From positions 2,034,940 through 2,098,939 of the forward strand of contig JARUPZ010000019.1 of NCBI GenBank assembly GCA_031213475.1: DNA of 64,000 nucleotides. The letters are read 5' to 3'. The translations under genes and the position numbers were made by a program. Each line of letters starts with the position of its first letter. The stretch's first letter is position 1. Below are positions 5,440 to 52,189 of the stretch, piece by piece. Under the pieces are notes generated by a model. The model ran no database searches. It was not told the origin of the DNA and saw only the letters and a program-made list of their open reading frames with translations. Source of the DNA: Nereocystis luetkeana (taxonomy: Eukaryota > Sar > Phaeophyceae > Laminariales > Laminariaceae).

Positions 5440-5610
5440 GTCACTATACTAATATCGAGCATCCGATATCCGATTTTTGGCGTGGAGTGACTCACAACAT
5501 CAAGAAAAAAAGTACGCGAGACAACCCAATATACGCTTAGTCTACAGAGCAACGACTATCCACGCTAGGCGGTGAGACAAGGGGTGCGTCCCCAGCAGAA
5601 GGGGGGGGCT
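5440..5610. promoter_or_regulatory. Putative divergent promoter
   Basis: This 171-base interval separates the starts of the minus-strand membrane-protein gene and the plus-strand RING-LON gene. No clear TATA box, dispersed repeat or ORF is visible in it. A bidirectional promoter is inferred from gene orientation only. If the minus-strand start is really at 5181, the interval is about 430 bases. Confidence 0.3.
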
Positions 5611-5810
5611 ATGGACGAGAAGCCGGAGCACCAAACTTCGCTTACCGACCTCCTCCCGCGAGGCTTCCTCGACTGCGGCATCTGCTTGAGCTTGATATGT
5701 CAACCTGTTTCTATCAGCTGCGGGCACACGTTTTGCAGAACGTGCCTGGTGAAGACGCTGCAGCGAAGTGCCAAGAGGTGTCCCTGCTGCCGAGCGGTCT
5801 GCCACGCCAG
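5611..5810 (+). CDS. RING-LON gene, exon 1 (RING finger)
   Basis: This exon carries the start codon and the whole C3HC4 RING. The spacing C-x2-C-x11-C-x-H-x2-C-x2-C-x11-C-x2-C is canonical. It ends in GCCAG before GTACGG, leaving two bases of a split Arg codon. The following intron (5811-17544) is 11.7 kb and filled with repeats. Confidence 0.9.
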
Positions 5811-8800
5811 GTACGGAAAGGTCGCACCATAGCTTTTTCCTCGAGCTTCTTCGCGCTTGCGGACGGAGTCATTCACAGGCGCGTTCGCTTCCAGGCTTGA
5901 CCGTCAGAGGCCCTCTCTGTGTTGCTGTAGTGAGTAGACATCGCAGAGCGTTTCTGAATTGCGCGGCGGAGCAAGTGCACGTGTCTTTTTTTGTTTCCCC
6001 GACGCGTATGTTCTCGCGACACTGCTGCTGCTGCTGCTGTTTGCTGCTGCCCCGAGGTCAACAACAGCAGCTCTCGGCAGTCGGGTCGAGCAGCGCCGAT
6101 CGACGTATATACACATAATACTTGGTCTCCACTCGGGAAATGTTCCTCACGCCAGACAGATGTGTCGGCGGGCTCATGACGCTGTTGATAGATACGATGA
6201 TGCGGTGTTCACGTACCAAGGTACACAATACCTGGTACAAACCCAAATAAACAGACGTACGAGTACGTACATCCTCGGGTATGCGCAACAAACCAAACAA
6301 AGGCACACTTTAGGGCTGCAGTCCCGTCTTCGGGATAAACGCGTCAAATTCTGAGTAGTTTGTCCCCAAAACGGGACTGCAGCACTATTAATAACAAGGG
6401 CTTACCTGGACAATAGGGGGGTGTCTTCTCTTTTCGATACGCATACCTGCGGTTGGCATGACAATAAGCTGTTTTCGAAACAGCAGCTCAACAAGGTGTG
6501 CTGTAGCCCTAAAAATATCCGAAAAACCGTACAAAATCAAAATTTTGCTGGGAAGCATGTATGTTGAGTACGGACTACTGCTGTGAAAGAAAACCAGACA
6601 CATTTATTTGCGTTGCAGTTGCAGAACTGGAGTGCAGGGGGGGAAGGGGTCGAGCTTGCAGAGCTGTCATGGGCTCGTATCGTACTCTGGTGTAGATTTT
6701 TACGACGTAACCGTTCCGGCTTTTGAAGAGATCGAATGTTGTCACGGCGTTGATTGGTTGTACTTTCTGTTTCTGTGCCACCACGCCATCACCCGCACCA
6801 TCACCGATGTCTGTTGCTTCAAATACCCCCGTGGGTCGTGTTCGTACGTTGGTACACCTCGCACCTGTGGTACCGTCATATGTACCAGGTATACCGTTAT
6901 GAACATCGCCCCCATCGTCAGATGTGCTCACCAAACAGCAGTAGTATATATAACCTGGTACCAGGTACCTGGTACCAGATATCTGGTGTACACCATCTGA
7001 ATCAGGCTACTCGTATGATACGTATGATTTGTTTGGGTTCGGGGTTCTGTTACTATTAATACTGCTGCTGTATGCTCCTATTAAATATTAACCCCTTTAG
7101 AACTCCAGTCCCGTTTCGGGGACAATCCACTCAAATTCCAAGTAATTTACCCCAATTGTCCCCAAAACGAGACTGCGGTCCTAAAAGAGTAATAGGTTAT
7201 CGCACGTATCCTTAACCCCTTTATAGCTCCAGTCCCGTTTTGGGGGCAATCCACTCAAATTCCAAGTAATTTGTCCCCAATTGTCCCCAATACGAAACTG
7301 CAGTCCTAAAAGGGATAAGCGGGATTTGAGCTTTGGGTGGGGCTACGGCTGCTATTGTGTGCTGGTGTACTATTAAATATTAATAATGTACTGCGATCAA
7401 GTCTTCTTCTGCGCCAGGGACATTTGTACCGGGTCCCGGGCTTGGCTTTGTCGGCGTATGGGGGTCGTCTAGGGCTTCGGGCCGACGACGCCCTGTGGTG
7501 GAAGACGTCTGCTTTTCGTGCTCCGGTGTGTCAAATGCTGGAGCGCGCGTCGCCGCCCTCGCCCAGTGATTTCTTCTGCTGTGTTGCTGACTGCCTTCGC
7601 TGCAAATTTTTTACCAGGTACCGGTACGCATCAGTACCTCTCTGTCCATGTGTGTGTGTGTGTGTGTTCTTCACATTAAACCGTTCTTTCTACCCGTCGA
7701 CATCCAGCACAACCAGTGTCCGTGCCGATTCTTCCATCCTAGAAGAGATACAAGTTCTGTGGTCACAAAGCTACGCCACAGAGATACTACGTTGCCACGT
7801 GTGCAGTGTGAACTGCAGTGGGCAATGCAAAGCCATGTCATCATACTAGATACGACAGGCACGACATACGCAATCTATGAAATAGTGAAACGAAAAGAAA
7901 CAATCAAAGAGAAAACAAAACAAGGTAGACAAGTCGAAAAAGAAAAAGAAGAAAAATGAAAGCAAAATCTAAGAGAAACAATCTGTCGTGCCCTGGGTAA
8001 GGATCGTTCTGGTATTATTGACATTACGGGGGACCACATTAAATAGGACCTACGGCGGTACAGACAAAAACCTGTATATTTCACTATTTTCACTATTAAT
8101 ACTATTTAATGATATTTTGGTCCTATTAATAGTAACTATGGTCCCCCGTTATGGTATGAATATTCTAAACATTCCCTAATTTTCCGGGCATAATGTAGGT
8201 ACTCTGTACGTAGCATACGCGTAACCCTTTTAGAACCGCAGTCCCGTTTTGGGGACAAACCAGTCAAATTCCAAGTAGTTTGTCCCCAAAACGGGACTGC
8301 GGTGCTATAAGGGGTAAGGGAGACACTTGCTTGGTGTCCTCTCTGAAGACAAGCGTAGTATACCCGGTGTACCAGGTATATAGCGCGCAAGATAAGACAC
8401 ACACACACCCTTTGGGACGAATTTCAGATCCGATTTCCTCCAAAGCATGGGGGGGAGGGGGGCACACGGCACACACAACGGAAATGGTGGCGTTGGAAAG
8501 TTTTTTTTCGATAAGGTTGCATTGATACGTGTCGCTGGTCGTATCCAGTACGCCCTCCCAGTTGTCGAGAAACCCAGCTTTGAAACCGTCCGAGGGGGTG
8601 TGCGTGTTGTCTTGCGTGTTAGACGGCGGTACGAAGTTAGGACATCAGTACTTGGTTCTATTTTCATACTAGGTACCACTCTGTCCCATAATATAAGCAG
8701 CGGTTTACACTAATTATTAAACCAAAATTTGATTGTATTTCGGGACAGAGTGGTAGTGATTGTCGAATATATTCTACACAAATATGCCTGGGATGCATCA

Positions 8801-11800
8801 CCAGCACACGTCAATTTGGTCTGCGTATAGACTCACACACTTTTGTCTTTTTCCTGCGCGGGCTCGGTTGGTACATCCCTGGCCTCTCCGAGGTCCCACG
8901 TGGACACCACCGTCTTCCATTACTTGCCGGCGAGAACCTTTTTCGTTTTTTTTTTCGTTCTTGTGTGCGTGCGTGCACCCAGCGCACGGCAACGCGGGCG
9001 AGCACAGCGCCATCGCGGGTGTCAGCAGGCGCTGGCGGGTAGAGGGGGGGTTGGAAGGAACGCAGTCGCCGCTTTTGTGGCTAGGCGTCGCGGGTGCATC
9101 GAGAAACGAGGGAAGCATGAATGGGCTCTTGTCCGGCCTCCTGATCTTGAGTTGGTCATAACATGTGCGAGTCTAGGCGGGTCGTTTCGGTGTGAAAGAG
9201 AATACTCGAGCGATTCTTATTTTTGGGGACAAGCTGGAGTTCAGAGAGAGAACCCCGTGGTCTGAGCACCAACATTGCCGAGCTGGCGAACGAGGACCTT
9301 GGTGAGCACCGGGCTTTACGCGAGGCGGGCGACGGGGCTCACTGCGGCAGTGAGGGAGGAAAGCTTTACCCGGACCGAGTTGGTGGCGAGGTTGTCGCGA
9401 GAGCGGCGGGCAGAGTACGAGGCTGAAAGAAGCTCTGCTGTTCGTTTTTTTTTCACCGGCACAAGGATTTCAATCAGGCGGGACCCGAGTTCATCAGAGA
9501 GGACGGGGATTTTTTTAGAATTGTCATTTTCGTTCTTGATTCCAACTATCTGTATTGCACTGCCCACAAAACACAAAAATAAACTCCGGATCACAAAAGA
9601 CTGGAACCACGTCTGCCCTCGTGTTTTTTCCCTGTAGGACATTCCGTTACTCTGCACTCTAAGGGCCCATCTTAACGGGGAACGCTATTTTGGAGTAAAA
9701 TTTTAATTTCAATGAATTTTAATTTGATTTCGGAAACAAAACGTGTTTGTGTCCTATCGGGGAACAGCGCACTAGTTGTCAATCAAAAAATATTTCTGGA
9801 AGAACGCGCCGCGTCACACAACGCCCAGCAGACAAACAGCGACGAGCGTAGACGAGAGCGAAGGTTTGCGCTTCCGCGTGCGCGCCGCTGCCAAGCGCTT
9901 TCTCTTTTTGGTCGCGCAGGATAGGAAGCTGTCACTCTCAGGGTGTCTTGGGTGGGCGGAGGAAGGCCTCAAGCGCCACGTGCGGAACAGCAGCGGTGTT
10001 GCAGCTTTCGAGGTCCCGAGCGTATCCTCCGTTTTTTTGCTCATTTGCTCGGTTTTCGCGATTGTTGGCCGATCGAGCAGGCCGAAAAAATGGGATTGCG
10101 GCCGCCATGATTACTTTTGAGGCGCCACCGCCGGGGTACGATGTGCTATGGTGTGTGGGCGTGGGCGCGGCTATTGATCCGGTCACCTCTCGTTGAGGTT
10201 CGCGTTTTATCGCCTCGATCGTGGTCGCCGAAGCGGCCCAGAATCGCCCCAGACTCCACCGAGGGTGTTGGCCCACCATTAACATGCTCCGTCAAGTCCG
10301 AGGAACTCCCAAATTCCAAATTGGAATTCGAAAAATCAGACGAAAAAAGTCCCAAAAGACTTTTCGCTCAAATTCATTTTTTCTAATTTGCCTGCTTGGT
10401 CGTTCACTCTTCGGCCAATCAGGTGCAAATTAAATTAGAAAAAGAAACAAAAAAAACAAATTGAAAAAAATAAAAATCCCCGTTAAGATGGGCCCTAACA
10501 GTAGCTTCGAACTTTCCCAGTCGTCCATAATTTGGCAGGGCAGATACGAGCTCCTTGGTCACTTCTGTGAGTGCCAAAATCGACGGCATTGACCGTGTTT
10601 TCCAACTAGGCTGAACTTGTCGCTGAAGTTTGAAAATGTAGTTCCAGGCGCGTAAAATTTCGGTTTCTCTTATATACTCTAGCCAAGTGTTTTTTTCTGC
10701 AGTAGATTGAGCAGGAGGAGCACAGGAGGAGCTACTGCTGTATATACTCGCACATACCACTGTAAAAAATATATGCTCCGTAGTTCTCTAGCTTTTCTTT
10801 TCAAGAAGACAGGCAGTCTACAATATCAAGGCCAGCGCACTACGTGTTTTCTGTGTGGGCATCGGTAGAGAAAACGGGATTTAGTTGCCATATTTCTATT
10901 GGCGTACGCGAGGGCACGCGAGCCGAATGGTGCACTCGTACAGCATATTGTGAGCAGCTTCCGCGTTCCTTCTTCTGCGTTCTACACCACAAAAGAACGA
11001 TGATACCTGGCTACAGTACAATAAACGAAATTCCAGCGCCTGGAACCACCTTTTCAAACTTCAGCGACGAATTCCGCCTCGAAGGAGGACGTGAAAAGTG
11101 CTGCCGCTTTGGCACACTCATGGGAGTGCACGGAGGAGTTAAAATCCGCCCTGCCAAATTATGGACGACTGGGCAAGTTTACTGTAGGGTAGAGTAACGA
11201 AATGTCCTACAGGAAAGCGAACGGGTGCAGACGTGGTTCCAGTCTTTTTTGTGTCAAGAGATTCGTCAGTATGTTTTTTTTGTGGGCAGTGCAACATAGG
11301 TCTTTGTTTTTTTTTCTTCATATTTTCGCGGTGCTGTGCCATGCTGTGCTTTCTTTTTCGTACATGTGAATAGAAGTATGTACATACATGCGGCGTCCGG
11401 GTTGTTTTCCTGGATGGAGCATGGAGCTCTTGGCATTTTCTAGTCGCCTGTTTGGGCCTATTTTTTTTGCGTCATCCCTTCCGCTCATTTGTCCCTCGTG
11501 AGCGAGCATAGCGGGTGAAACCGCCCGCTACGCAAAGCGCCTTTTATATTATATCCTAAAGTTCAGCTCAAAACGGCACTACTTGTTGCAACCAGGATTG
11601 TACATTAGCTCGGGCCGAGGCAGTTAGCTGAACTTCAGAATATATCATGTAAACCAACGTGACGTGTGCTGATGATAAACATATTCAAGGCTATGTTCTG
11701 TCGTAGAGTCTGTGGGCCCCGGGTAAGGGTATGGAAGTTTCGAAGAACTTGCAGAAGTTCCGGGGACGGGTATGGAAGTCTTCCAGAACTCACAGGAGTT

Positions 11801-13410
11801 CCGGGGTGTTGTATGGAAGTATTACAAAACTCTCAGAAGTTCCGGGTGGGTACACGAATGTTCTACCCGTACCCGCACCCCGGTATGCTACAAATCGTCG
11901 AGTACCGAGTATATACCCCGGTACTTACCCTATTTCCCGGGTATTTACCCTACACAAAGGCCGGGCACGGGTATGGGATGTTGTACCCGTACCCCGGGTA
12001 TTGTGGCACGGGCGTACAGAATTTGCAAATCTTCGGGTACGGGTATGAATGAATGTCGTACATAACTTACAGAAGTTATTTGTAGGGTAATACCCGGGTA
12101 ATCACCCCGGGTATGGTGTTGCATGTACCCTACAGAACATAAGCTTGCATCTGTATTCGTGTCATCTATAGCACTTTATTACATCTACCTCAAACAAGTA
12201 ATTTGTCCTGTACACACTTGATTAAAATGCCTTGTTGCGCTCTCAGAGCTCCCGCTCGGAACACGCCTGCCTAACTCCGGAACACTCCTTCCTTTCCTTT
12301 TTTTTTTTTTCTTTTTCTTTTCGTTTCTTCGAAAATCATACTCCCGGCTCAGCTCAGCCCACACTAAATCCAAGACAATAAATCCCGCAGTAGTTTTTTC
12401 AATATATAGATGTATGTATCACCATGATATTGCGCGTCATGAGTAAATGTCGACGTTTATAGTCAATACAAGTGAGTGTTGATACGTACCAGGGATGTAT
12501 TTAACTGTCGCGCTATTGCGTTGGCGCAACATGTTGGTCTAAAAGGACCGTTTCCCGCAGCAGCCGAGGAGGGCCTGGTTGCGCGCAGCACAACACGCGA
12601 TTGCGGGCTTTTTTGTTTGCCGTAGGCGATTTTTTCAGGTATCTTTACGGTTATCCGTCCGTGCACGGTGCGGTTTTGTTCAAATCGAAAATCCCACGGT
12701 GCGGTTCGGTGCGGTTTTAAAAAATCGGAAATCTTACGGTTCGGTTCGGTGCGGTTTTCAGGTTTTGTAAATCCTACGGTGCGGTTCGGTTTTGAGATAT
12801 ATCCTACGGTGCGGTTCGGTGCTGTTTTTAAAAAATAGGAAATCCTACGGTGCGGTTCGGTGCGGTTTTCAGATATTGTGCGTCCTACGGTGCGGTTCGG
12901 TGCGGTTTTAGATAATCGTAAATCTTACGGTGCGGTTCGGTTTAGTGATTTATCATACGGTCCGGTTCGGTTCGGCTCCCCGTTGAATCGGTTTTTATTC
13001 GGTGCGGTTCCAATCCCCGTAGGGAAAACCGTTCAACACACGCTTTTCTCTACGGTGCACCGTATATATAAACCGTACTAAACCGCGGTTTCGTACGGTT
13101 CTCAGGCTTTTATCGGGGCACTATAACGAAACCGCTGTTTCTCTACGGTGCACCGTACGAATGAAGCGTACAAAACCGCGATTTCGTACGGTTTCTGACG
13201 CTTTTTGCCGGGGCTCTACGTAACGCAAGCGAGCGCTGCTGCGCAAGCAAGCTCTGCTGCAAGCAAGCGCTGCCGCAAGCAAACGCTGCTGCAAGCAAGC
13301 GCTGCCCCAAGTAAGCGCTTCTTCAAGCAAGTAGTGCTGCTGCAAGCAAGAGAGCCACCTCAAGCAAGCGCTACTGCACGCGCTGTTGCAGGCGCTGCTA
13401 TACTGCTTGC

Positions 13411-13458
<48 letters not shown>

Positions 13459-16400
13459 AAGCGCGCGCACCCTTGCCGCCACGCTCCTGTGATCTTCGCC
13501 GCTCCGATCCCTTCTCGGGCAGAGAGGACAACAAAGAAGAAGGTGGGCCGATATTCTCGTTGTGGCGGCCTTGCTAGCACGGCGAGTATCGAGGAGCGCA
13601 AGTTAGAGCGCATGTCTGCCTGGTGGTGCTGGCTGCTGCTCACTGCTTCTGCAGCTTGCTGCTGTTGCTGTTGCTGTGCTGCACAGACAGGTAGGTACTG
13701 CTGCCTGCACGCCTTCTGTTCTGCTCGTTGGATGCTGCACAAGTGCTGCCGCTGCTGCAAGTGTTTATTTTTCAAACATAAGAATGCAATAGTAAGCAAT
13801 TTTTCGTCTCCGATTCTGCGCATGACGGAAAAGGCTTTCGATTTTGACTGTCTTTCCGACGGAAATCCTTGATGCACAAAAATATTATGCACAGGCACTC
13901 TAATGTTTCGGATAATTTTTTCAGTTTTCACAGATACCCTATATTTTCTTGTATTTTAGTATGTCCTACCAGGTATTTCCTATTTTCCGGCAGGTGTACT
14001 TCCGGAGACTCGGAGTATATCAGGTATACACATACTTGAAGTTACCTTTTTCCTAAAATCACTTGATTTTAATATAGGCACCTGCCTCACGCTCAGCGAG
14101 TCTCCCACGATTTTTTGTCGCTTCTACGATCCTTGCTTTCTTCGCGTTCTTCGCTTTTTCTTTGCGTGCTTGCTTGTCGTGCCACACTTTTTTTCCCGGA
14201 ACAAAAGAAAAAAAAATCTCGGAAAAAGAAAAAGTCGATTTTGTTTTTCCAGCGGTTTGGGAGGCTCTCTTTCGCTTTTTTTCACCGGCTGGTTGAAATT
14301 TCTTTCGCACTTTCAGTTCGTTTTTCCTTTTTTCTTTTTCCGTTTCGTGTGCGTGTGTGTAGTCGGAGCACTGCGACGCGGGTGAGCCCGGCGCCGTCGC
14401 GGGTGTCGGCGGATGCTGGCGGATAGAGGGGGGGTTGCAAGGAGCGCGGTCGCGGTTTTCGTGGCTAGGCGTCGTGTGTGCCTCGAGACACAAGGGAAGC
14501 ATGAATGGGCTCTCTTTTGCCTCCATCTGAAAAATTAGACTGAGTATGTACGAGTCCATAAGGGTCGTTCGGGATGCAAGCTAACATTCAAGCGGTGCTT
14601 ATTATTGCGACCACGCTGAACTATACACATAGACGAACGCCTGTCTGACAATCGAAATCGTCGAGCTGGCAGACAAGGGTCACGGAGAGCACCGGGCTTC
14701 ACGCGGGGCGAGCAACGGGGATCACTGTGACAGAGAGGGAGGAAAGCTTTACCCGGACCGAATCGGTGGCGAGGTGGTCGAGAGAGGGGCGGGCGGCGTA
14801 CGAGGCTGAGAGAGAAGCTCTGTTGCCCATTTTTTTCTCTTCTTCTTTGACTGGTGCAAGGTGTTCCAGGGGCAGACAATTATTACATGAGAGGGGACGG
14901 GGATTTTTTTCTCTTTCCATTTTTTTCGGTTTTATTTTCATTGTTTTTGCGGTGCTGCTGCTGTGCCATGCTGTGCTTTCTCGCACGTTCATACTGATAC
15001 ATGCCAGGTACATATCATACAGCATATCGAAAGAAGAAAATCAGTACCCTACCTGGGGTGTGTACGTATGTATGTACGTACGTAGACTCTTGGCATTATC
15101 AAGTCGCCAGTTTGCAACTACAACAAGAATCATAAAAATATGTGTTCAATGATCGACCTTCTGTCCGCTTCGCGTAATTCGATGTACTTTTTCTTCCAGA
15201 GCGAGCGTAGCGGGCGGCGTAGGCCGCCCGCGGAGCGAAGCGCCCTGTAATATATCAGAAATAAATAAATATAAACAATTAACCTTCAACCATACTTTTT
15301 TTTTTGGTGTCTCAACCACAAAAATATTCAAAATATGAAATACCATAAGATCAACCAAGCCAGGGGGGTCACTTTTGACTCGAAACCGTGCCGAACCCGT
15401 CATGAGCCGTGCGAAGCCGTGACCCTGTTGCTCCGTTCCGCGACCGATGAAACGGCGGGTTTTTCTACCGTTTCAAGTTAACCACACCGTTAAAAAACCG
15501 ATCTAACGGTTTTTGGCACCGTCTCTTGACGCACACGGTGCGGTTCGGTTTTGTGATATTTCCTACGGTGCGGTTCGGTGCGGTTTTCAGATATTGTGAA
15601 TCCTACGGTGCGGTGCGGTGTTGTGATAAATCGTACGGTGCGGTTCGGTGCGGTTTTCAAACATCGGAAATGTTACGGTGCGGTTCGGTGCGGATTTAGA
15701 AACTCGGAAATCTAACGGTGCGGCTCGGTTATTTTTGAAATCCCACGGTGCGGTTCGGTGCGGTTTTCCTATTTCGTAAAACCTACGGTGCGGTGCGGTG
15801 CGGTTTTCCACGAGGCAAAAGTCCTACGGTGCGGTGCGGTGCGGTTAACCGCACCGAACCGACAGGAAAAACCGCACCGTAAAGAACCCTGGAAAATTTT
15901 AAACACTGTTTTCCAAATTCGACTTTCGCGAAAATAACTTGGGACGCCTTTTTGAATTCGCTGCAGGTGGTCTTTTTTTTCCAGTCCCTTTTTCTATAGT
16001 ATTAATAGAGCAAAAGGAACTTAGATTATGATCCCGATACACGCCTTTTCGAGGTTCGGGAGGCGTTTAAACGCACTTTGTCACTTGGTTATCGGGCATA
16101 CATTCGCGAATATATCGCAATTTTTGGCCTCCGGCGGCCCTCGCGCGACACGCCTTGCGTCGCCTGTTCCACGCAGCGCATCAAACGCCGGACCACTAAT
16201 TATATCCCTGGTACATACCGTACACGTCATGCAAAGTGATTATTACGGGGGACCATAGTTAATATGACAAATATTGTTAGTAAAAGTGGTTAAATATATA
16301 GGTTTTTATGTATACCATAGGTCCTATTACGAGGGGCCATAGTTAACAGGACCAAATATTGTCAGTAAAAATTGTTAAACATACAGGTTTTTATGTATAC

Positions 16401-19400
16401 CATAGGTCCTGTTAACTATGGCCCCCCGTAATAGTAACTATGGTCTCCCGTAATAGTGGTCAGTATAAAGAGATACCTGGTACCGGTATCCTTTTATCCC
16501 CATCAAGAAATAGATACTTTCGGCCAACGGGTTAGTTGGATCCTCTCCGTGTTTTCACCTTATGACCCTGGATTACACCCCGGGGAGTTGCTTGCCGTAC
16601 CTGGATTGGTGATGCGTTGGTTTTTATTGCTGCCGATTCGGAAATAAACCCTCGGCCAGTTGACTTTATGTCGACGGCTGTTGTTATGCTTGTTTCATCC
16701 CAGTGATAATATTAATAGTAAGTATTATCAATTGTCGTATGATATAGCGTATGATAGCTCGAGTACTGCAAGTACGTACTCGTATACTTGTAGCGAGCGC
16801 CAAACCCCCGTGTTCTGTGTTAGTCAGTGGTCTTTGGCGCCGCCTCGCGTTCTGCGTCAGTGGTCGTCGGCACCGACGTTGTCCCCCTTGATGCGATTGT
16901 TATGATTCGACGATGATTGCGATGGCACCAACTGCCGTGGACCGTGGACGGCACCTGTCCTGCGGCCTGCGGCTCCTAGTCGATGTAAATCCTGTACGTG
17001 GTACATCTGTACATGCCTGGCCGGGAGACTCAGGCTTCGTTTCGCAATCGACCATCCAGGGTGGATTTTTTATCTGAAACTTGAAACTACTGCTCGTACA
17101 GGGTGGATCTCTATCTGATACCTCGTACCTGGTACTTCAAAACCATGCACTTGGTAATGGTATCCTGATAAAACCATATACATCTATGCTGCTACGGTTG
17201 CACGTGTTATAGGTAACTTGGTATATGCTATAAATACGAACCCTCTGGTATATTCTAAATGTTAACACCAAAGCCTCAGATCCACGTGCCGCCAAACTCT
17301 CTACTCTGGGGTAACTGTTGTTCAATGGTATTTAATAGATCGACAGTTCCCACACTAAGATGTACGCGCGAGTTATAAAAGTACGAGGTGTGGAAAAAGC
17401 CAAATACGTAGAACTCCGTACATCGCGCCTGCTCCATAATACCCATGCTGTAGTCATGAACAATACCAGGCATAATTTTCTTTCTGGCTCGTGCCGCCGC
17501 CGCGTGGCCCTTTTTTTGTTGTTGTTGCCGTAATGGACTCGCAGGGCGGAAGATCAACCACAAAACGTGATGATCGCGGACATCGCGAAGGCGCTGTTCC
17601 CCGAGCTGCTGGAGCGACGGATGCGCGAGACGGCGGCGGAGAAGCATAAGTTCGAGCTCTGCCTGCCCGCGTTCTTCTACAACCAGCCCATGTTTCCCGG
17701 CGAAACACTCTGGTTGCACTTCTTCGAGCCGCGCTACAAGCTCATGATGAAGCGGATCATCGACACAAGCCAAAGGTGTGCCCCCCTGTGTATCAAAGCG
17801 CGTATGCGGAGGCGTTATTTTTTATTTTTAAGGGCTGTTCACGGCTCGAGTGAAACCTCGCGGGTCAGTTTCGGCGGCCCGACCCGACCGACCCGTGAGA
17901 GTTCGAAAACCTCCTGACCTGGCCCGACCCGACCCGACCCGACCCGTGCGATTTCTCTCACGTCCATGACCCGACCCGTGGTCATGGCCAGTGAAGAGCC
18001 CTGGTTATTGAGACTCATCGACATCCAGCGAGACGTTTACGTACGACATGTGTCCATGGTTTTCCCATCTAAAAAACCTCCCCGGGCCAAAGCTGTCCTC
18101 CCCCCCCTTTCATGTGCGTACGTAGACGTTTGTTGGTTGAACCTACTGTAATACCGATTCCGAAGCTTTCCTCTGTATGTCGCGAAACCTCTCCTCTCTC
18201 TCGTTTCCCCCCATTTCGTGCCCATTGTGTACATGTGTGAGGTGTGCCCAATGTTTGTGTCTCTCCAAAGCCTCGGGGTGTGTGTATACCGGGTACCTGG
18301 TATATGCTACGACCTGCCTGGCGGGTGTTTGTGCTCGTGCAGTGTGCCTCTGTGAGCACAGATCGATTGGGTGGCTCGGCCAAGAGGGCAAAATTCTGGG
18401 TGGCCGATTCTTGTTTTGACACGTCAAGGCCTCTTTCGGCGTGTCTCTATACTGGTGTTTGTGTGGAGCAGCGGTCATTCAAGGCGTCTCACCGCGGTCG
18501 CCTTGAAATAATGTTATATTTTAGCAGAGAGTATCCGCGGGAGATTCGTCTTGTCCCGATCGACCCCTTTACTTTTCCGGTATAATTTCCAGTGTTGACC
18601 GTACCCTCCCGTCGTCCCCCCCCTTTCCCCCTTTCTCTTGTTCTCGCCCGCCCCCGTGGCTCGTTACCCCAGTCCGCCCCCCCCCCCCCCCCCACTATTC
18701 CGCCTCCGCCCCCAGCCACCCGGCCATGCCCTCGCGTGTGTTATTGCGCTGCTCGAATGGTCTAGTATACATGGTGCTCACCATGGCCCGTGTCGCATGC
18801 GTAGCAGGAGTTTGAAGTCTTGGGTCTTGCGGCTCGCGTGTGGTTCGAATGTAGGATTAGACAGGAGGGCGGATATGTCTGTCAGAGCGCGCTGTGGCGC
18901 TTACGCGTACATTGCACGCTGTCATCTCGCGTCTCCACCTCGCCGCGTACGGCGGAACTTTTTTTTCGCGCTGTTTGAGGCATCTTAAGGTATACGCCGG
19001 CGCCGCGTCTATACCACGAGTGAACACCGTTTGTGTAACAGCAGTGTACCAAACCCTACGCATCGTGTATTTTCTTCCGTATGCCTTCCCCCCCCCCCCA
19101 TCTCCCTCCTACTCCTTCACCTTATTCTCCTCCTCCTCCTCCTCTTCTTCCTTTTCCCCTTGCTCCTCCTCCTCCTCCTCCTCCTCCTTCTCCTCCTCCT
19201 CCTCCTTCTCCTCCTCCTCCTCCTCCTACTCCTCCTCCTCCTCCCCCTCCTCCTCCTCCTCCTCCTCCTCCTCCTCCTCCTCCTCCTCCTCCTCCTCCTC
19301 CTCCTCCTCCTCCTCCTCCTCCTCCTCCTCCTCCTCCTCCTCCTCCTCCTCCTCTTCCGGTGGCGGCGGCTGCGACAACCACTATCAGATTCGCGTACGT

Positions 19401-22400
19401 ACCGAACTACTCCAAGAATGTGGCGGCGAAAGGGGACATCGCTCTGGTCGCACAAGTGGTGAGCTACCGACGAACGGACCGACCGACACCGTACGTGCTG
19501 CACAACAAAACGTACGACCCAGCTCTGAAATGATAGTATCCATAGTGTTTCATTTTACCAGGTGACCAGGTTTATATATACCAGGATACCAGGTATTTGG
19601 AAAACTGCCGTTGACGACGAGAAGCGATTTTCTTCTCCTGAGATTCCAGAAAAAAATGATATCTAGTTCTCGGAAATTTTAGACCCGAGAAGGGTAGTTG
19701 TGGCGATTACGGCGTCGACCGCACACGAAAGCATCGAAAGGAGAAGTAGGGGGTGTCCCCGAATTGTAACGGAAGAAGATGGACGACAAGACGCGCGCAG
19801 GCAGCAGCAGCAGCAGCACACTTGACCGTTTTTGTTTTTTGTTCTTCCCCCCCCCGCCCCCCCCCCCCCCCCCCCCCGGTTGAGAGTACGCATGGATAGG
19901 GAAGAAGAGGAAGGGACAGAATAGCAAGAATAGGGGGGGCGGGGGGCGAGGGGTTCCTAGTCAAAGAATACCTGTGTGGCATAGTAGAGGTGATCAAAGA
20001 CACTAAATTCGACGAAAGCATATGGATTAAGATACCGGGGGAGCGGGGAGCGAAAGATTACCTCTTAGGAAACATCTATATGCCCCCAGAGTCGAAGACT
20101 ACGATAAAATACATACAGATGAAGTTCGGAGAAGTAGCAGTAGATGGACAGAAGTATAAGAGGCAAGGAGAAGTAGTACTAGTGGGAGATTTTAATTCAA
20201 GAATTGGGAAGGCAAGCAAACTGAATGAGAGCATTGGACAGTATGGGGAAGTAACAAAAAATAGGAATGGGGAAGAGATGTTGAAGTTCCTCAAACACAA
20301 CGAGATGAAGACGTTGAACGACAGAGTAAAAAAGGCAGAACCGGAATGGACTAGACAGTGCATACAAAAAGGAGAAAGCTCTATCCTTGACTTTATAGGA
20401 GTAGAACGCGGAAGTGGGAAGGAAACAGAACTACATGTATGCGCAGCGGACGTAGGAACTACGGATCACTGTCTAATATGGACAGGCAGTCGACAGACAA
20501 GAGTTATCAAACGAAGACGAGGTAGGAAATTACACAAATGGAGAATAGGTAAACTAGAAGTAGAAGAGAAACGGGAAGAGTTCCAAGAAGAGATGGCCAA
20601 AAATGCAGAGCAATTTTCCGAGCTATTGGAAAGAATAGGTACAACAAGGAACGATATAGAGAGGGATGATGCAGGAGCTAGGATAATAGGAGGATGGGAG
20701 AAGTTGGTCAAGACCACAGCAAGTAAAGTATTAGGGAAAAAGTTGATAGTATGCAACAGACCAGTAAAATGATGGGAGGAAGAAGTGAAAGAGGCTATAA
20801 CAGTAAGGAGAAAGGCACAAGCAAGGTATACATCGAGCAAAACTACGACAGGATGGGAGGAATATGATACAGCTAGAAAGAAAGTAAAAGAGATGGTAGA
20901 GAAGAAGAAAGGGATATGGAAAGATGTAGTAAATAAAACGAATGAAGACTTTGAGGGCGGGATGAAGCAGATGTGGATAGGGATAAAAGGGATACTGGGC
21001 AAACAAGCAGGAGAGGCTGACACGGGAATAACTACCTTAAGAGCACAGCACGGTAAAATGGTTAGTAGTTCGAAGGGAAAAAGGGAAGCACTTGTCGAAC
21101 ATTACCGTAAGCTAGGAACACCCACAGCCAACAAAACGTTCGACGCAGAATTCGAGAAGGAAATCAACGCGTGGGCAGAGGCGAACGTAGATGCATCAGA
21201 AAGGGAAGACAGTGGTTCGGAAGGGTTACAGAGAGAGTTCACAAGGGAAGAGGTAAAAAAATGTGTAGCTAAACTTAGGAATAGAAAAGCAGCAGGGGCA
21301 GACCAAATAGTGAATGAATTTATGAAGTACGGGGGAGAAGGAGTGCTTACCATGCTGGTTATGTTGTATAACTGGATATGGAAAAACGAGTACGCACCCA
21401 GGAGGTGGAGAGAAGGAGTAGTAGTAAACTTATTCAAGAAAGGAGATAAGGCTGACCCGGGGAACTATAGAGGGATAACGCTACTAAGCACAGTAGGCAA
21501 AACATTTTGTGAGATTTTGAACGATAGAATGGGAACGATGATGGAGAAGGAAGACAAACTAAGCGAAGGGCAAGCAGGGTTTAGGCCAAACCGTAGCTGC
21601 GTAGACCATGTGTACACTCTAGGTAAGATAATCCAAGGTAGGAAAGACGCGGGACTACCAACGTACTGTTTCTTTCTAGATGTACGGAAGGCCTACGACA
21701 CAGTATGGAGAAATGGATTGATGGAAAAAAAAAGGGAAATAGGAATCAGAGGAAAGATGCGGAGAATGATGAAAAAGATTACGGAATGAGAAGTGCTGTG
21801 ATGCTGGACGGGGAAATATCGAAGTATGTTGATATTTTACAAGGAGTTGCACAGGGATGTACGCTGCCACCCAACTTATTCAAGATATATATTAACGACC
21901 TGATAGTAGCAGTTGAAGCAGCAAGGCAGGGAGTCACGGTAGGGGAAGATACAGTGTCGGGATTGATGTTTGCTGATGACTTCGTGGGGATATCAGAAAC
22001 ACCTGAAGGATTGCAGAAACAAATAGAGAACGCGGTAGAATACACTAGGAAATGGAAGGTGACGGCGAACGTCAAGAAATGCGCAGTAGTTGTTTGTAAC
22101 GAAGATAAGGTGAACCCGATAAATTTCAGTTGGAAGTGGGGAGAAGATGAATTGCCGATCGTAGACCAGTATACGTACCTTGGCGTAGAGATCTCAAAAT
22201 ACTGCTCTTGGGATACACATATAGCAAAAGTAATAGGATAGGGTAAAGCACACATAGGCAAGATGGATGCGATCCTAACAGACTCGCACCTTGACACCAG
22301 GATTAAGACATGTATATATCCTGATGACTGTGATAGTACCAAAGCTAGAATATGCAGGAGAAGTATGGGAAGGGAATGCGAAACTCGTAAAACAGTTCGA

Positions 22401-25400
22401 AACAGTACAGATGGCAGCAGCTAAAAAAATCCTAAGATGCTCAAGTACGACTAGTAATACCGTATTAAGAGCAGAACTGGGAATGCACCCACTCAAGACA
22501 AACGGATATGAGAAAGTTGAAATGGCAACATAAAGTAAGGAACATGCCACAAAAGAGGTTGCCGGCCATAGTTGATAGAGCTGTATGGGAGAAAGTAACA
22601 AAAGGGCGAACTGGAATAAGGTGGGATATCGTAGTTGAGAAAGTATGGAAGGATATAGGGGGAAACCAAGAAGAGGCGATGTTCGCCGGGAAGTTTGGGA
22701 AGTACAAGGCAGAAGTAGAAGAAAGGATAGAAAGAAGGGAAAGGCTAGCGCTACGAAACAAGGTGGAATCGGAAAAACACCTAGAGATATACGGGAGATT
22801 GAGGGAAGGAATAGGACTGAAAACGTATCTGAACGGCCCAATGGACTTCGCGAAAACGCTGAAGCTGCGTTTTCGTGTAGGCGACCTGGACTTGCCAGAA
22901 AGAAGAAAGAGGTATACCAGTAGCCGGGAGGAGGAGGAAATAGATGCACAGATGTGCCCGTGTGGCAAAGCGATAGAGAGTAGAACTCACATAGTAGGAG
23001 AATGTGAAATATACAAGGAGGAACGGGATGTGTTAGAAGAGGAGATAAGGGAAATAGACGAGTGTGACATGGAGGAGTTTGACACACTAGATAGCAGCGA
23101 GAAAACGATCGCTATCCTAGGAGATAAACGGTTGCCACAGGCGGCCAAACAGGAAGGGGATAAGATTAGCAAAAAGTTTCTATGTAATATATGGAATTAC
23201 ATGAGCGCCCAATTGTTGGAGGTGTCTCTATTAGGAGTAGGAACGGCGCTCCGTCTCGAAAGGGATGCGTGGTCAATGGTCAAATGACTAAGGCAAGCAA
23301 CAAATGAGTACCCCCCCCCCCCCCCCCCCCCCCCCCGCCCCCCCGCCCCCGTTCTGTCGCGACCCACCTCCATTAACAAATGCATTACATTGAATTAATC
23401 GTAGTGCGACGCGGAGTTCTTGGTTGATGGCCGAGTGATGGTGAAGAGCAAGCTTGTCGGCAGGTATCACATCCAGGTGAGTTCGCTAACTAGCCCCCTC
23501 CCCACAACCGGCTGCGCCCTCGTGTTCGGGACGTGCGCTTGCCTTGTTTGAAGGGTCGCACCCGATACTTTCTGAGGCTCCTCCGCTCGAGAAACTCTCC
23601 ACGCCTCCATACCTGCAGTATCCCCGAAACGAAACCGATTTTTAGAAAACGTGGGCGCTCGAACTCGGCCCGTACTGCATAGGTATGGGTGTTGTCCGAA
23701 TTATATCGTGAGACAGAAATGGATCAGCGATAAGGCATGCCTCGTCGGGCAATTTCTCGGTGCCCTTCAAGGAGCCCCCGTGAGTCGGAAGTGTTTGCCT
23801 TGGAAGGCAAAAAAAATGATGCGATCCCTACCGTAGAACGCGTCTTTGCGTATACATTTGCTTAGGAGGTCCGAGTGGGAGAAATGGTTGGAGAGGAAAG
23901 AGGGGGTTGAAAAAAGAAGAAGAAAAAAAGAAGGCTCCTCCCCGCCTGCGCCGCGCCGCCGCGTATTTATCAACGCTCCGCGTTTGTTTCTGCGTTACGA
24001 GGTGTGTGCGTGTGTGTGTATACCGCCCGCTCTGCGTTGCGCGTGCAGCGGGTTTTGCATGTGCGGCGTTTTCGTGTTGGGCGGGGGTGCCGCCGCGAAA
24101 AGGAACCGATCGCTTGCGGTGGCGGTATGTACAGTATGTTGTTGTTTTTTTTCGTTTGAACGGCGGCACCCTGACAGGGAAACAAACCTCTACAATAGTC
24201 CGATGACGCCGCGTGTTTTAGTTTATGTTGCTGGGAGTTGGTTGCTGTAAGTTGGCGTGCGGTGGTGGAAATGTTTTGTTGCGGGCGGGCGGGCGCCAGC
24301 CGAGCGAGCGGCTGCATAAAAAAGTTAATCTACGTGTACTAAAAGTAGCTGGGTTTATTTCGACGGCTGATGCTATGTTCCGAAGTAGTTCTTTGATGAC
24401 AACCTCAACATTTGCGCTTTGCACGACTGTTCGCCCGCAGACCTCGGACAGGATGCAATTTCACCCCCCAGGGTTGCGGCAGCTTGTGCGATATACTTGT
24501 AGCACGATAGCAGTAAGTATAGCGCGCGCACCTTTCCTTCGTTGGCGTGCCGTGGAGCGAAGCCCCCGCCCCCACCCCTCTCCCTCCCCTCTGCTCGCTT
24601 GCCCGCCATGTCGCTTTGCTTACTTATTTGCTTGTTGGGCTGCTTTCTCCTCTGTCTTGGATCGTATTTGCGATGCGATACTCGCGTACAGGACGACTTC
24701 GTGGAGGACGGTACACAGGGGTTACACTACTGCCAGCTGGAACCGTACGAGGACACGGTTTTGGGAGGAAGGGACTCTGGGGAGCTAGAGGAACTCCATG
24801 CGAAAGCCAGGGCGTTATGCCACGGATTTCTCGGCCCTTTCAAGGTATGCCCCCCCCCCCCCCCCCCCCCCCTGCTCGTAGGTTTTTTGTTTTTTCAGTG
24901 AACGCCAGTCGTTTTTGTGTGACCCCCCCCCCCCCAAGTCAATGATCGTCCAATGATTTAATGAGAGTGTGTACCAGTAAATTATGTAGGTCGTGTTTAC
25001 ATGTATTGCTTTTGTGGCGTCCGTTCGCGGTGCTCGAGGTACATAGAGAAGCCATGGTAATAGTGTAATAGTATTACGGGGGACCATAGTTAATAGGACC
25101 TGTGGTGTACATAAAAAACTATATATCTAACCATTTCTACGAACAATCTTTTGTCTTATTAACTATGTTCCCCCGTAATAGTAGCAGGTGATGAGTCTCA
25201 CGACGCCCTCGGTCGGAATACAGCTCGAGGATTAATAGTATACCAGGTGTATCCTATTGATTGATACTATTACGGGGGACCATAGTAAACAGAACCAAAT
25301 AGTGTTATTACGGGGGACCATAGTTAATAGGACCTATGGTATACATAAAAACCTATATATTTAACCATTTTTACTAACACTATTTGGTCCTATTAACTAT

Positions 25401-47996: not shown

Positions 47997-48611
47997 TTAT
48001 TGCAACTTCGCTGTACCATTGGCATAGGTCTAAGGAGTGAAAAAAAGGGGAAAGCGAAAAGCAGGCAAGGGCGGCATACAGAGGGGAAGGAGCCCCGGAC
48101 GGCCTTATGCTATCTACGCCGGTACTGGAAAGGCACACGTCATGAAGATGATGACCGTACCCAGTCTTCAGTCTTTTGGGCAGGCCACCCCCCTTTTCCC
48201 ACCGCCCTCTCCCCCCAACCCCCTGCCCCCGCCGCCGCCCCTCCCTGGGCGCATTGGTGTCAGCGGTCCTTGTCGCAGTTGCAGCCGCAGCCGTCGCGTG
48301 TCCGCTTCGCCTCATCGCTCCTCTCCGCGTCATGCCATTTCCGCACGCGAGCCTTGACCCCTTCCTCGACCAATCGGAGCCATCTGCCGCGGCCTACTAC
48401 TGTGCTGCCTCGTGCCACCCTTCGGACCTAATACCGAACGCGTTGAGGCCCCTCCTTGACGCGCCCATCCGATCGGTGTGGGAACATATGGAGGGATACC
48501 TGGTTATTTGGGCACAACGTGGGTTATGATCCACCATGCCTCCAGTAGTACCTGTTAACGGTATTAGTGTATGGTAGGGCTATATATAGAACCAATTCCT
48601 TAGATATAAAT

Positions 48612-50046
48612 CCCTGAGCGTGCTCGGTTGGTACATCCCTGCCCTCTCAGAGCTCCCACTTCGAAACCGCCTCCTTTTATTACTTGCCGGACCTTTCCGG
48701 CGGTTCTTTGTTTTCTCGGTCCTTTCTTCTTGTTTCTTCTTTCGTTTCGTGTGCGTGCGTGTACTCCGAGCACGGCATCGCGGGAGGGCCCGGCGCCGTC
48801 GCGGGTGCCAGCGGGTGCTGGCGGGTAGAGAGGGAGTTGCAAGGAGCGCAGTCGTCACTTTCGTGCCTAGGCGTCGCGTGTGCCTCAGGACACGAGGGAT
48901 GCAGGAACGGGCTCTGCCTGGCCTCCATATTTTATTTTTGATAGAGTATGTACGAGACAGACCTTTCCAGCGGTTCTTTGTTTTCTCCATTTCTCTTGGC
49001 ACTCTCGTCCTTTCTTCTTTTTATATTCTTTTGTTTCGTGTGAGTGCGTGTACTCTGAGCACGGCACCGCGGGAAAGCCCGGCGCCGTCGTGGGTGTCAG
49101 CGGGTGCTGGCGGGTAGAGGGGGGGTTGCAAGGAGCGCGGTCGTCACTTTCGTGCCTAGGCGTCGCGTGTGCCTCGAGACACGAGGGATGCATGAACGGG
49201 CTCTGTTTGGCCCCCATTTGTGATTTTGGATAGACTATGTACGAGATATAAGGGTTGTTCGAAATTGCAAGATAATATTCAAGAGGTGCTTATTTTTGCG
49301 ACGGGGCTGAAAATCATTGAGGGAAGTACCCGGTCTGAGTAGTGTAGTACTGTCGAGCTGGCGAACGACGGCCACAGTGAGCACCGGGCTTGACGCGAGG
49401 CGGGCGACGGGGCTGACTGTGGCAGAGAGTAAGGAACGCTTTACCCGGTCCGAATCGGTGGCGAGGTGGTCGCGAGAGGGGCGGGCGGCGTACGAGGCTG
49501 AGAGCGAAGCTCTGCTGAACGTTTATTTTTTATTTTTTGACCGGTGCAAGGTGTTCCAATAGACAGAAGTTATTTCAGGAGGGGACGGGGATTTGTTTTT
49601 TTTTCCATTTTTTTCGGTTTCATTTTCATTGTTCTTGCTGTGCTGCTGTGCCGTGCTGTGCTTTCTCTTTCACCAAGAGGAAAAGGCTGTGTGTCGTTCA
49701 GCATTACATACAGCAAGCATGTCTAAAGAGCAAAATGATTACCCTACCTCGGGTATGTACGTACGTACGGCATATGAGCGAGCGTGGAGGGCCACATACG
49801 TCCGGCAACCGCCCGCGAAGCGAATATGGCGTCCGAGCTGTTTTCTCCTGAAGCGTGGCGGCGGGACTATTGGCATTCTTAAGTCGCCGGTTTGCAACTA
49901 TTACTGTACGATCGATCATGAAAAAAACTACCATGGTATATTCAATCATGGACCTCTGTCCGCTTTGCATAGTAATTTGGTGTATTTTTCCTTTCTGAGC
50001 GAGCGGAGCGGGCGGCGTAGGCCGCCCGCTGAGCGAAGCGCCTTGT
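48612..50046 (+). mobile_element. Family D repeat, copy 3, with an internal duplication
   Basis: It starts TGCTCGGTTGGTACATCCCT and ends in the hairpin at 50002-50040. The segment from about 48695 to 48955 is repeated at 48960-49240; both contain GCGGGTGCTGGCGGGTAGAG and GGCGTCGCGTGTGCCT. The copy points toward copy 4, which is inverted about 1 kb away. Confidence 0.75.
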
Positions 50047-50689
50047 AAACCGTACCAATCTGACCGGAAATATAGTCACCGTTAATTGTTGACCCCAGAT
50101 CCCGAATGGGGCTAATATTTCCGGTCAGATTGGTATGGTATAAATCGTCTCCAAAGTTTCGGTATATGGAAAATGAATGTCGAGCTTTCGGTAGACTCTG
50201 GCCGACAATGTTATACACGTTTTATGTTCACATTGGGGTCCAAACGGGGTTCATGAGTCCGGCCAGCAGTGGTAAATGGTACGTATCAAAAGCGTTTTGC
50301 TCCCCCCCCCATCCCCTGACGTACCCCCCCATATCAATATTTTTCGTGCTATTTTTTCGAACGAAAAATATTCGACGTACAGTCAGTAGGTATGCACCTT
50401 GTGTCATAGATACATCTATATATATATATACATGACATAATACGATACCCTGATATGGTTATATCATGCCCCCGTATTCAGTTGGGTTTGTCAAAGCATA
50501 TATAGATGGGTGTGTCGTCGTGCCGTACAAGTGCTGCTTGCTGTAGAACTTAAGCGAGCGTGTCGGATCGTACCTTCCGGCGCAGCAGCAGCCGCAGGCA
50601 CGGCAGGAAGACTGCGTGGCACCATGCGATCATGTTGTCAAAGTAATACCAGCGCATGCATACCGAACCCTTCGAAGCTGTTGATGCTT

Positions 50690-51057: not shown

Positions 51058-52160
51058 TATACAAGGCGCTTCGCTCCGCGGGCGGCCTACGCCGCCCGCT
51101 ACGCTCGCTCAGGAAGGAAAAAAGTACATCAAATTATGCGAAGCGAACAGAGGTCCACGATTGAGCTTAGTTTTTTCAAGGATCGTAATTGCAAACCGGC
51201 GACTTGATAATGCCAAGAGTACCGCCGCCGTGCTTCAGGAAAAAACAGCTCCGACGTCAGCTTGGATCCCACATATACGCTTCGCGTCGCGGATGTCGTA
51301 CGTACGTACATACCCCAGGTAGGGTACTACTGTCTGTACTTATTTTCGTTTTTCGATATGCTCTATGTCTGTACTGTATGTACGAAGAAAGCGAAAGCAC
51401 AGCACGGCACAGCAGCAAAAACAATGAAAATGAAACCGAAAACTCGGAAAGGAAAAAAATCCCCGTCCCCTCTCGTGTAATATTTTTCTGCCTGATTGGA
51501 ACACCTTACACCCGGTCGACAAGAAGAAAAGAAAAAATCGCACGGAAGAGCTTCTCTCTCAGCCTCGTACGCCGCCCGCCCCTCTCGCGACCACCTCGCT
51601 ACCGATTCGGTCCGGGTAAAGTTTTTATCACTCTCTGCCACAATCAGCCCCGTCGCCCACCTCGCGTGAAGCCCGGTGCTCTCCGTGGCCGTCGTTCGCC
51701 AGCTCGATAACGTTGGTGTTCAAACTGCACACCTCCCTCTTTCAACTTTAGCGTGGTCGCAAGAATAAGCACCGCTTGAATATTATCTTGCCCTCCCGAA
51801 CGACCTTCATAACTCGTACATAGTCTATCAACAATCATAAATCGAAGCCAGACAAAGCCCGTTCATGCATCCCTCGTGTCTCGAGGCACACGCGACGCCT
51901 AGGCACGAAAGCGGCGACCGCGCGCCTTGCAACCCCCCCTCTACCCGCCAGCACCCGCTGACACTCGCGACGGTGCCGGGTCCTCCCGCGATGCCGTGCT
52001 CGGAGAACACGCACGCACACGAAACGAAAGAAGAACAAAGGAAGGAAGGAAAGACCGAGAAAACAAAGAACTGCTGGAAAGGTTCGGCAAGTAATGAAAG
52101 GAGGCGGTTTGGAAGTGGGAGCTCTGAGAGGCCAAGGATGCACCAAACGAGCACGCTCAG
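51058..52160 (-). mobile_element. Family D repeat, copy 4 (inverted)
   Basis: On the minus strand it starts at GAGCGTGCTCGTTTGGTGCA near 52160 and ends in the hairpin at 51062-51108. It is closest to copy 3 and lacks that copy's internal duplication. Together they form a large inverted repeat (48612-52160). Confidence 0.75.
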
Positions 52161-52189
52161 GGGTTGTGATCTAAGTATGTAGTTCTATG

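Follow-up and report, generated by a model that had tools for sequence, protein, structure and literature searches.

Probable four-level nest of mobile elements in Nereocystis luetkeana, ordered by the intact arms of its own inverted repeats

Architecture of the nest and order of insertion

In a 64,000-nucleotide stretch of the Nereocystis luetkeana genome (G000:C19:2034940-2098939; hereafter designated the window), we found a locus that very probably represents a stack of mobile elements on four levels, with the insertion order Z → D → X → Y as read from the sequence. An inverted repeat, Z, would have been present first, as the oldest layer; a Helitron-like repeat, D, would then have inserted into one of its arms, a foldback element, X, into D, and an element of the PIF/Harbinger type, Y, into one arm of X. 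The initial annotation had described a three-level nest of Y in X in D. The nesting of these three elements proved real, and their order D → X → Y was upheld by joined alignments and by relatives of D that lack X, whereas the depth had to be revised because a fourth, older level (Z) was found outside D. Searching the genome (465 Mb, 1987 contigs) for each element alone, as had been proposed, revealed copies of Y, X, and D elsewhere. The coordinates of the elements shifted slightly, to 9663-10495 for Y, 9547-11302 for X, and 8830-11544 for D (this copy hereafter designated D1).

All the layers belong to known kinds, and nested MITEs, foldbacks, and Helitrons are already known; the distinctive points are the double internal control and the superfamily of X. 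A foldback is its own control, in that an insert in one arm leaves the pre-insertion site preserved in the other arm. At this locus the internal control works twice, Z serving for D and X for Y, and it provides the insertion order without a second genome. The nest may thus be used as a teaching case and as a way of ordering element families in poorly annotated genomes; knowledge of transposition itself is unchanged by it.

Insertion of Y into one arm of X

Y is an 833-bp element on the forward strand whose two termini carry the 19-bp terminal inverted repeat (TIR) GGGCCCATCTTAACGGGGA, identical at 19/19 positions. The first part of the X left arm (9547-9662, forward strand; consensus positions 4-111 at 86%) ends in TAA (9660-9662) immediately before Y, and a second TAA (10496-10498) follows it, so that the reported combination of a 19-bp TIR and a TAA duplication within one X arm was reproduced. 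The identification of Y rests on its other copies, on its TIRs, and on the duplications in eight fetched loci (L001-L008). Downstream of the second TAA, the remainder of the X left arm, the centre, and the whole right arm (10499-11302, forward strand; consensus positions 111-905 at 83%) constitute the uninterrupted control for Y. Indeed, after removal of Y and one TAA, the X left arm could be aligned across the insertion site with the reverse-complemented right arm, with 234 of 280 aligned columns identical and a 6-base gap a few bases beyond the site, in agreement with the earlier claim that the other arm is uninterrupted there. The longer arms matched in 330 of 403 columns with a joined score of 324, the best of 300 shuffles reaching 59.

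Since the two pieces alone scored 122 and 206, which together about equal the joined score, what matters is that they occupy directly adjoining stretches of the intact arm. The same holds for the other two joints, where the joined score was again not above the sum of the pieces (1079 versus 870 and 237 for X in D; 72 versus 48 and 32 for D in Z); the proof is therefore given by the pieces lying end to end, not by a gain in score.

The genome search with Y yielded 1001 first-look candidates, 40 of which, including this copy, were scored; the other 39 showed 93–95% identity. The target duplication was exactly TAA or TTA in five of the eight fetched loci and one base off in three, as judged by eye, and none of the seven other loci (L002-L008) matched X, D, or Z. 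These features fit PIF/Harbinger, which is recognized by a 3-bp TAA/TTA target duplication, here TAA, and by TIRs of 14–25 bp, here 19 bp and identical at both ends. As in PIF/Harbinger MITEs (mPing-like), Y combines a 19-bp TIR starting with GGG, a 3-bp TAA/TTA duplication, and many copies, and no Pfam domain was found in the two frames tested. Unlike the plant PIF/Harbinger groups, whose TIR motif G(N)5GTT is given in PMC2213677, Y has a TIR that reads GGGCCCATCTTAACG and lacks this motif. The genome contains 57 matches to PF13359 (DDE_Tnp_4).

X as a foldback family

The search with X gave 604 first-look candidates, of which 40 were scored, with 119 matched stretches, and 30 loci were fetched. 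Both ends could be set in 18 of these 30; one copy with a misplaced end (L028) was omitted from the consensus and retained for duplications and ages. At its two ends, X carries CACCTGTGTTGCACTGCCCAC and the complement of this sequence. From 17 of the 18 aligned copies, a consensus of 906 bp was built that is an inverted repeat almost from one end to the other: its halves are complementary in 391 of 411 aligned columns (463 when gaps are included), which span 426 and 448 of 453 bases. Long inverted repeats taking up most of the length characterize foldbacks, and X possesses them. Its previous description as two arms of about 270 bp around a 360-bp loop could not be maintained, as this structure reflects a worn copy and, in the consensus of the family, the "loop" is included in the inverted repeat.

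The X end motif, with at most two mismatches, occurred at 600 places in the genome (287 + 313), compared with 0 for the reversed control, and some hundreds of X copies are therefore expected. In a check for larger X-like elements, opposite-facing neighbours among the 100 perfect end motifs listed from these 600 places were 490–961 bp or at least 25 kb apart. A 4-bp target duplication was exact in 6 of the 18 copies, agreed at three of four bases in 5, and matched in neither way in 7, the copy in the window (CAAC / TTTG) being one of the latter.

X resembles foldback elements (FB, Galileo, and Tetris) in that inverted repeats form nearly the whole element. What sets it apart is its CACCTGTG termini and its 4-bp duplications, the target duplications of Galileo and Tetris being longer. 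Elements of the Chapaev/CMC superfamily have CAC...GTG ends and a 4-bp duplication, and the X termini CACCTGTG...CACAGGTG and the duplication that is exact in 6/18 copies were set beside this pattern, a comparison of ends and duplication only. X was also considered as the end of an autonomous Harbinger, three copies (L078, L079, and L080) being located no more than 1 kb from a PF13359 match; this kinship was rejected, as each of these X copies retains both of its own ends outside the gene, and L078 and L079 are one unit. In three further loci (L023, L026, and L028), X copies are interrupted near consensus positions 78-128 by inserts of about 40–220 bases; Y in the window lies at position 111.

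Insertion of X into D

D1 flanks X on both sides on the forward strand. Its 5' part lies at 8830-9546, with the 5' boundary taken from four fetched D loci (L069-L072) and from the copies at 49 and 52 kb, and its 3' part, with a terminal palindrome, lies at 11303-11544, as aligned with L069, L070, L072, and the same two window copies. Three D copies without X were recognized in the window by sequence match to D: one of a younger subfamily at 14029-15247 (forward strand), which is the X-less copy previously noticed near 14.9 kb, one with an internal partial duplication at 48589-50045 (forward strand), and one at 52185-51062 (reverse strand; 51062-52185). In the second of these, the 5' part is itself partly duplicated, 48622-48926 and 49009-49530 matching overlapping parts of D1, and an inverted repeat (ACCGTACCAATCTGACCGGAAATAT and its complement) is seen by eye directly at its 3' end (50046-50145).

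With X removed, D1 aligned as one block with its closest relative, L069 (769 of 907 columns), as expected from the earlier placement of X in D, but the joint is worn, with about 15 extra T-rich bases relative to L069 as judged by eye, and the case is weaker than that of Y in X. The X site is crossed without interruption in L069 and L070, and also in L071, which breaks off further 3' and is followed by an inverted D. In L072, the T-rich spot of D that holds X in the window is occupied by a different insert, about 350 bases long, indicating that this spot is unstable; the T-rich stretch may be a favoured target. Because the X/D junction of the window copy is worn, the clean proof of insertion of X into D comes from L017, where a different X, flanked by the duplication CCTG, interrupts the 5' end of a different D, and the flanks, once joined, give continuous D sequence. 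This is the one locus among the 29 other fetched X loci in which X sits in D. Overall, the empty-site argument holds well for Y in X and less well for X in D.

D as a Helitron-like repeat

Judged from its sequence features, D is probably a non-autonomous, non-canonical Helitron. This reading rests on the lack of TIRs, a 3' hairpin, and the terminus CCTTG|TA, which is also that of an intact Helitron in this genome. The search with D1 gave 2726 first-look candidates, 40 of which, including D1, were scored, the other 39 showing 77–82% identity, and four were fetched; for the type represented by the copy at 14.3 kb, the 30 loci analysed were the best of 40 scored among 4121 first-look candidates. 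These 30 loci have a common start, …AT|ACACATACTT, and most of them end with GCGAAGCGCCTTG followed by TA. The 5' starts of D are TA|CACATACTTA or TA|GAACTACATACTTAG. In 29 rows, the two bases before the start, as placed by script, were A in 28 and T in 27; after the end, also in 29 rows, T was found in 25, A in 25, and both in 24. In the latter counts, L059, lacking a 3' end, was dropped, TA is missing in L039, L050, L052, L053, and L062, and the first four of these, whose 3' match fell on an incorrect or degraded position, were kept. These counts do not distinguish a duplicated TA from an A|T insertion that leaves no duplication.

Helitrons in the broad sense have a 3' palindrome and no TIR, and both features were found in D. 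Near the 3' end, a 9-bp stem stops 16 nt short of the terminus (centroid, −14.9 kcal/mol; z, −2.19), 5 of 200 shuffles being as good, and no TIR was detected, the end-to-end complementarity of L045 not being above that of shuffles. Canonical Helitrons end in CTRR. The canonical ends (5'-TC and 3'-CTRR) are absent in D, which has TA|CACATACTT or TA|GAACTACAT at the 5' side and CTTG at the 3' side, and D as a canonical Helitron was ruled out accordingly by its ends. HINE/DINE-1 was likewise ruled out, as no subterminal inverted repeats above chance were found in two copies: the best score was 13 in L045, compared with 17–24 for the ten best of 200 shuffles, and 11 in the 52-kb copy, which was scored without shuffles.

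Among 58 genomic matches to PF14214 (Helitron_like_N), 11 lie inside a stop-free frame of at least 1634 aa; these include G000:C27:3654213, C6:1557901, and C10:4793467. Downstream, three intact Helitron copies differ by one base over 1200, up to …GGGGAACCTTG, where they part, each with TA. The 3' end CCTTG|TA is common to D and 3/3 fetched intact Helitron ends, the comparison covering this short 3' end. The fetched Helitron parts are 99–100% identical between copies in each 100-base block, which suggests that the intact family may have been active recently.

Non-canonical Helitron ends are known in fungi, as described in PMC5148889. With non-canonical Helitrons (Helitron2, FoHeli, and HINE/DINE-1), as portrayed in PMC5148889 and PMC4067079, D shares the 3' palindrome, the absence of TIRs, head-to-tail neighbours (by eye in four loci: L042, L056, L061, and L072), and an AT-rich target, and also first-look candidates numbering in the thousands; it differs from them in its CTTG end instead of CTRR and in having no asymmetric or subterminal inverted repeat. 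The deviating ends and the want of HINE/DINE-1-type subterminal inverted repeats in two copies, together with the TA-rich runs that end several copies, would also suit a repeat of another kind, such as a SINE-like repeat or an element with a TA-rich tail. We consider such an origin rather unlikely, because the 5' end is untruncated and identical in 29/29 rows (drawn from the best 30 of 40 scored, in which truncated copies are under-represented) and because of the 3' palindrome, the end shared with the intact Helitron, and the head-to-tail arrangement.

A more far-reaching view would be that X represents a DNA transposon lineage so far placed in no superfamily (nearly palindromic, 0.9 kb, with CACCTGTG ends and 4-bp duplications) and, at the same time, that D is moved by a Helitron lineage using CTTG|TA in place of CTRR|T. 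We regard this combination as quite doubtful; if both readings were true, half of the layers in the nest would represent variants not seen before. Two D copies (L045 and L058) appear by eye to lie within another hairpin element, an intact-looking copy of which is seen in L070.

The outermost inverted repeat Z

Z is an inverted repeat at 8773-11707 with D in one of its arms. The part of its left arm that precedes D (8773-8829), as delimited by alignment to the intact Z arm, has as its last two bases the TA that is the D target site; the same dinucleotide as at 8828-8829 recurs at the D1 3' junction (11545-11546), and TA occupies the matching place in 24/29 D copies. The remainder of the left arm, the centre, and the intact right arm (11547-11707), defined by alignment and one partial relative, provide the uninterrupted control for D. 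When D was removed, the Z arm matched the reverse complement of 11600-11707 in 68 of 81 columns with a score of 72; none of 500 shuffles exceeded 39, nor did any of 1000 random pieces of the window, in which the region's own pieces were zeroed. The score of the 3' piece by itself (32) is also reached by shuffles; on the intact arm, the two pieces directly adjoin each other.

The genome search revealed no full second Z and one partial relative only, and in the 73 fetched sequences (window included) Z had no relatives besides pieces of this locus. By eye, no target duplication is obvious around it, and Z thus differs from MITEs, which form multi-copy families with a target duplication. It might accordingly be supposed that the Z arms are due to chance or to a local inverted duplication, not to an older transposable element, so that the nest would comprise three levels. 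The joined score, above both controls, and the end-to-end fit of the pieces argue against this, as does a diverged relative of the Z centre elsewhere (L074; 66 of 77 columns), and we judge it unlikely. Even with a local inverted duplication as the origin of Z, the order Z before D still holds.

Close to Z, at 8674-8755, lies a short hairpin element with 26-nt arms that are 85% complementary and 30 nt apart, flanked by TA; our guess is a mariner/Stowaway-type MITE.

Ages of the layers and probable formation of the nest in place

Ages were expressed as K2P distances to a leave-one-out consensus. The Y copy in the window is at 0.029, the highest value in a range of 0.016–0.029 among eight copies, whose loci are the nearest of the 40 scored and lean young. 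The X copy is at 0.197, third highest of 18 (0.095–0.239), and D1 at 0.183, fourth highest of eight (0.129–0.263). Y is clearly the youngest layer, and D1 and X are not separated by divergence; that D1 preceded X follows from the nesting. For the 14.3-kb type of D, 26 copies (L052, L053, L059, and L060 being left out) ranged from 0.033 to 0.069, and the 14.3-kb copy is from a younger wave than D1.

Nested insertions involving several superfamilies are described for the giant DNA transposons of Ectocarpus, where nested inserts are fixed among many copies (PMC12477816). The present nest is similar in that several superfamilies are nested and both Harbinger and Helitron occur in the genome, and it differs in being a single locus of non-autonomous elements with no unit that kept moving. 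By analogy, X and D, or Z and D, could have moved or been copied as one composite unit, the nest having formed elsewhere and arrived whole, and an X copy travelling with a PF13359 gene does exist here (L078 and L079 share flanks); this is very improbable, given that D lies beside X in only one of the 7 other Y and 29 other X fetched loci, at a different place in D, and that the Z pieces match only this locus and one 42-base stretch.

Putative host gene and surroundings

The nest is situated in the gap between a RING-finger exon upstream (about 5593-5802; zf-C3HC4_2, E 1.7e-08, above the curated cut-off) and a LON-domain exon downstream (about 17534-17821; PF02190, E 9.7e-05), both on the forward strand, and this gap is a putative intron. 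The LON match corresponds to the start of the LON substrate-binding domain and, at 22.8 bits, is below the Pfam curated cut-off of 28.7. Five frames in X, Y, and D matched no Pfam family, one match (E 0.074) being below its cut-off, and no Rfam family reached its gathering score between 5000 and 18500 of the window. Two minisatellite arrays (12666-12990 and 15535-15846) consist of 30-, 40-, 70-, and 110-base units around ACGGTGCGGTTCGGTGCGGTTTT. Downstream of the LON exon, at 19900-23287, there are frames resembling those of a non-LTR retrotransposon, one of which contains an RVT_1 match (E 2.6e-13).
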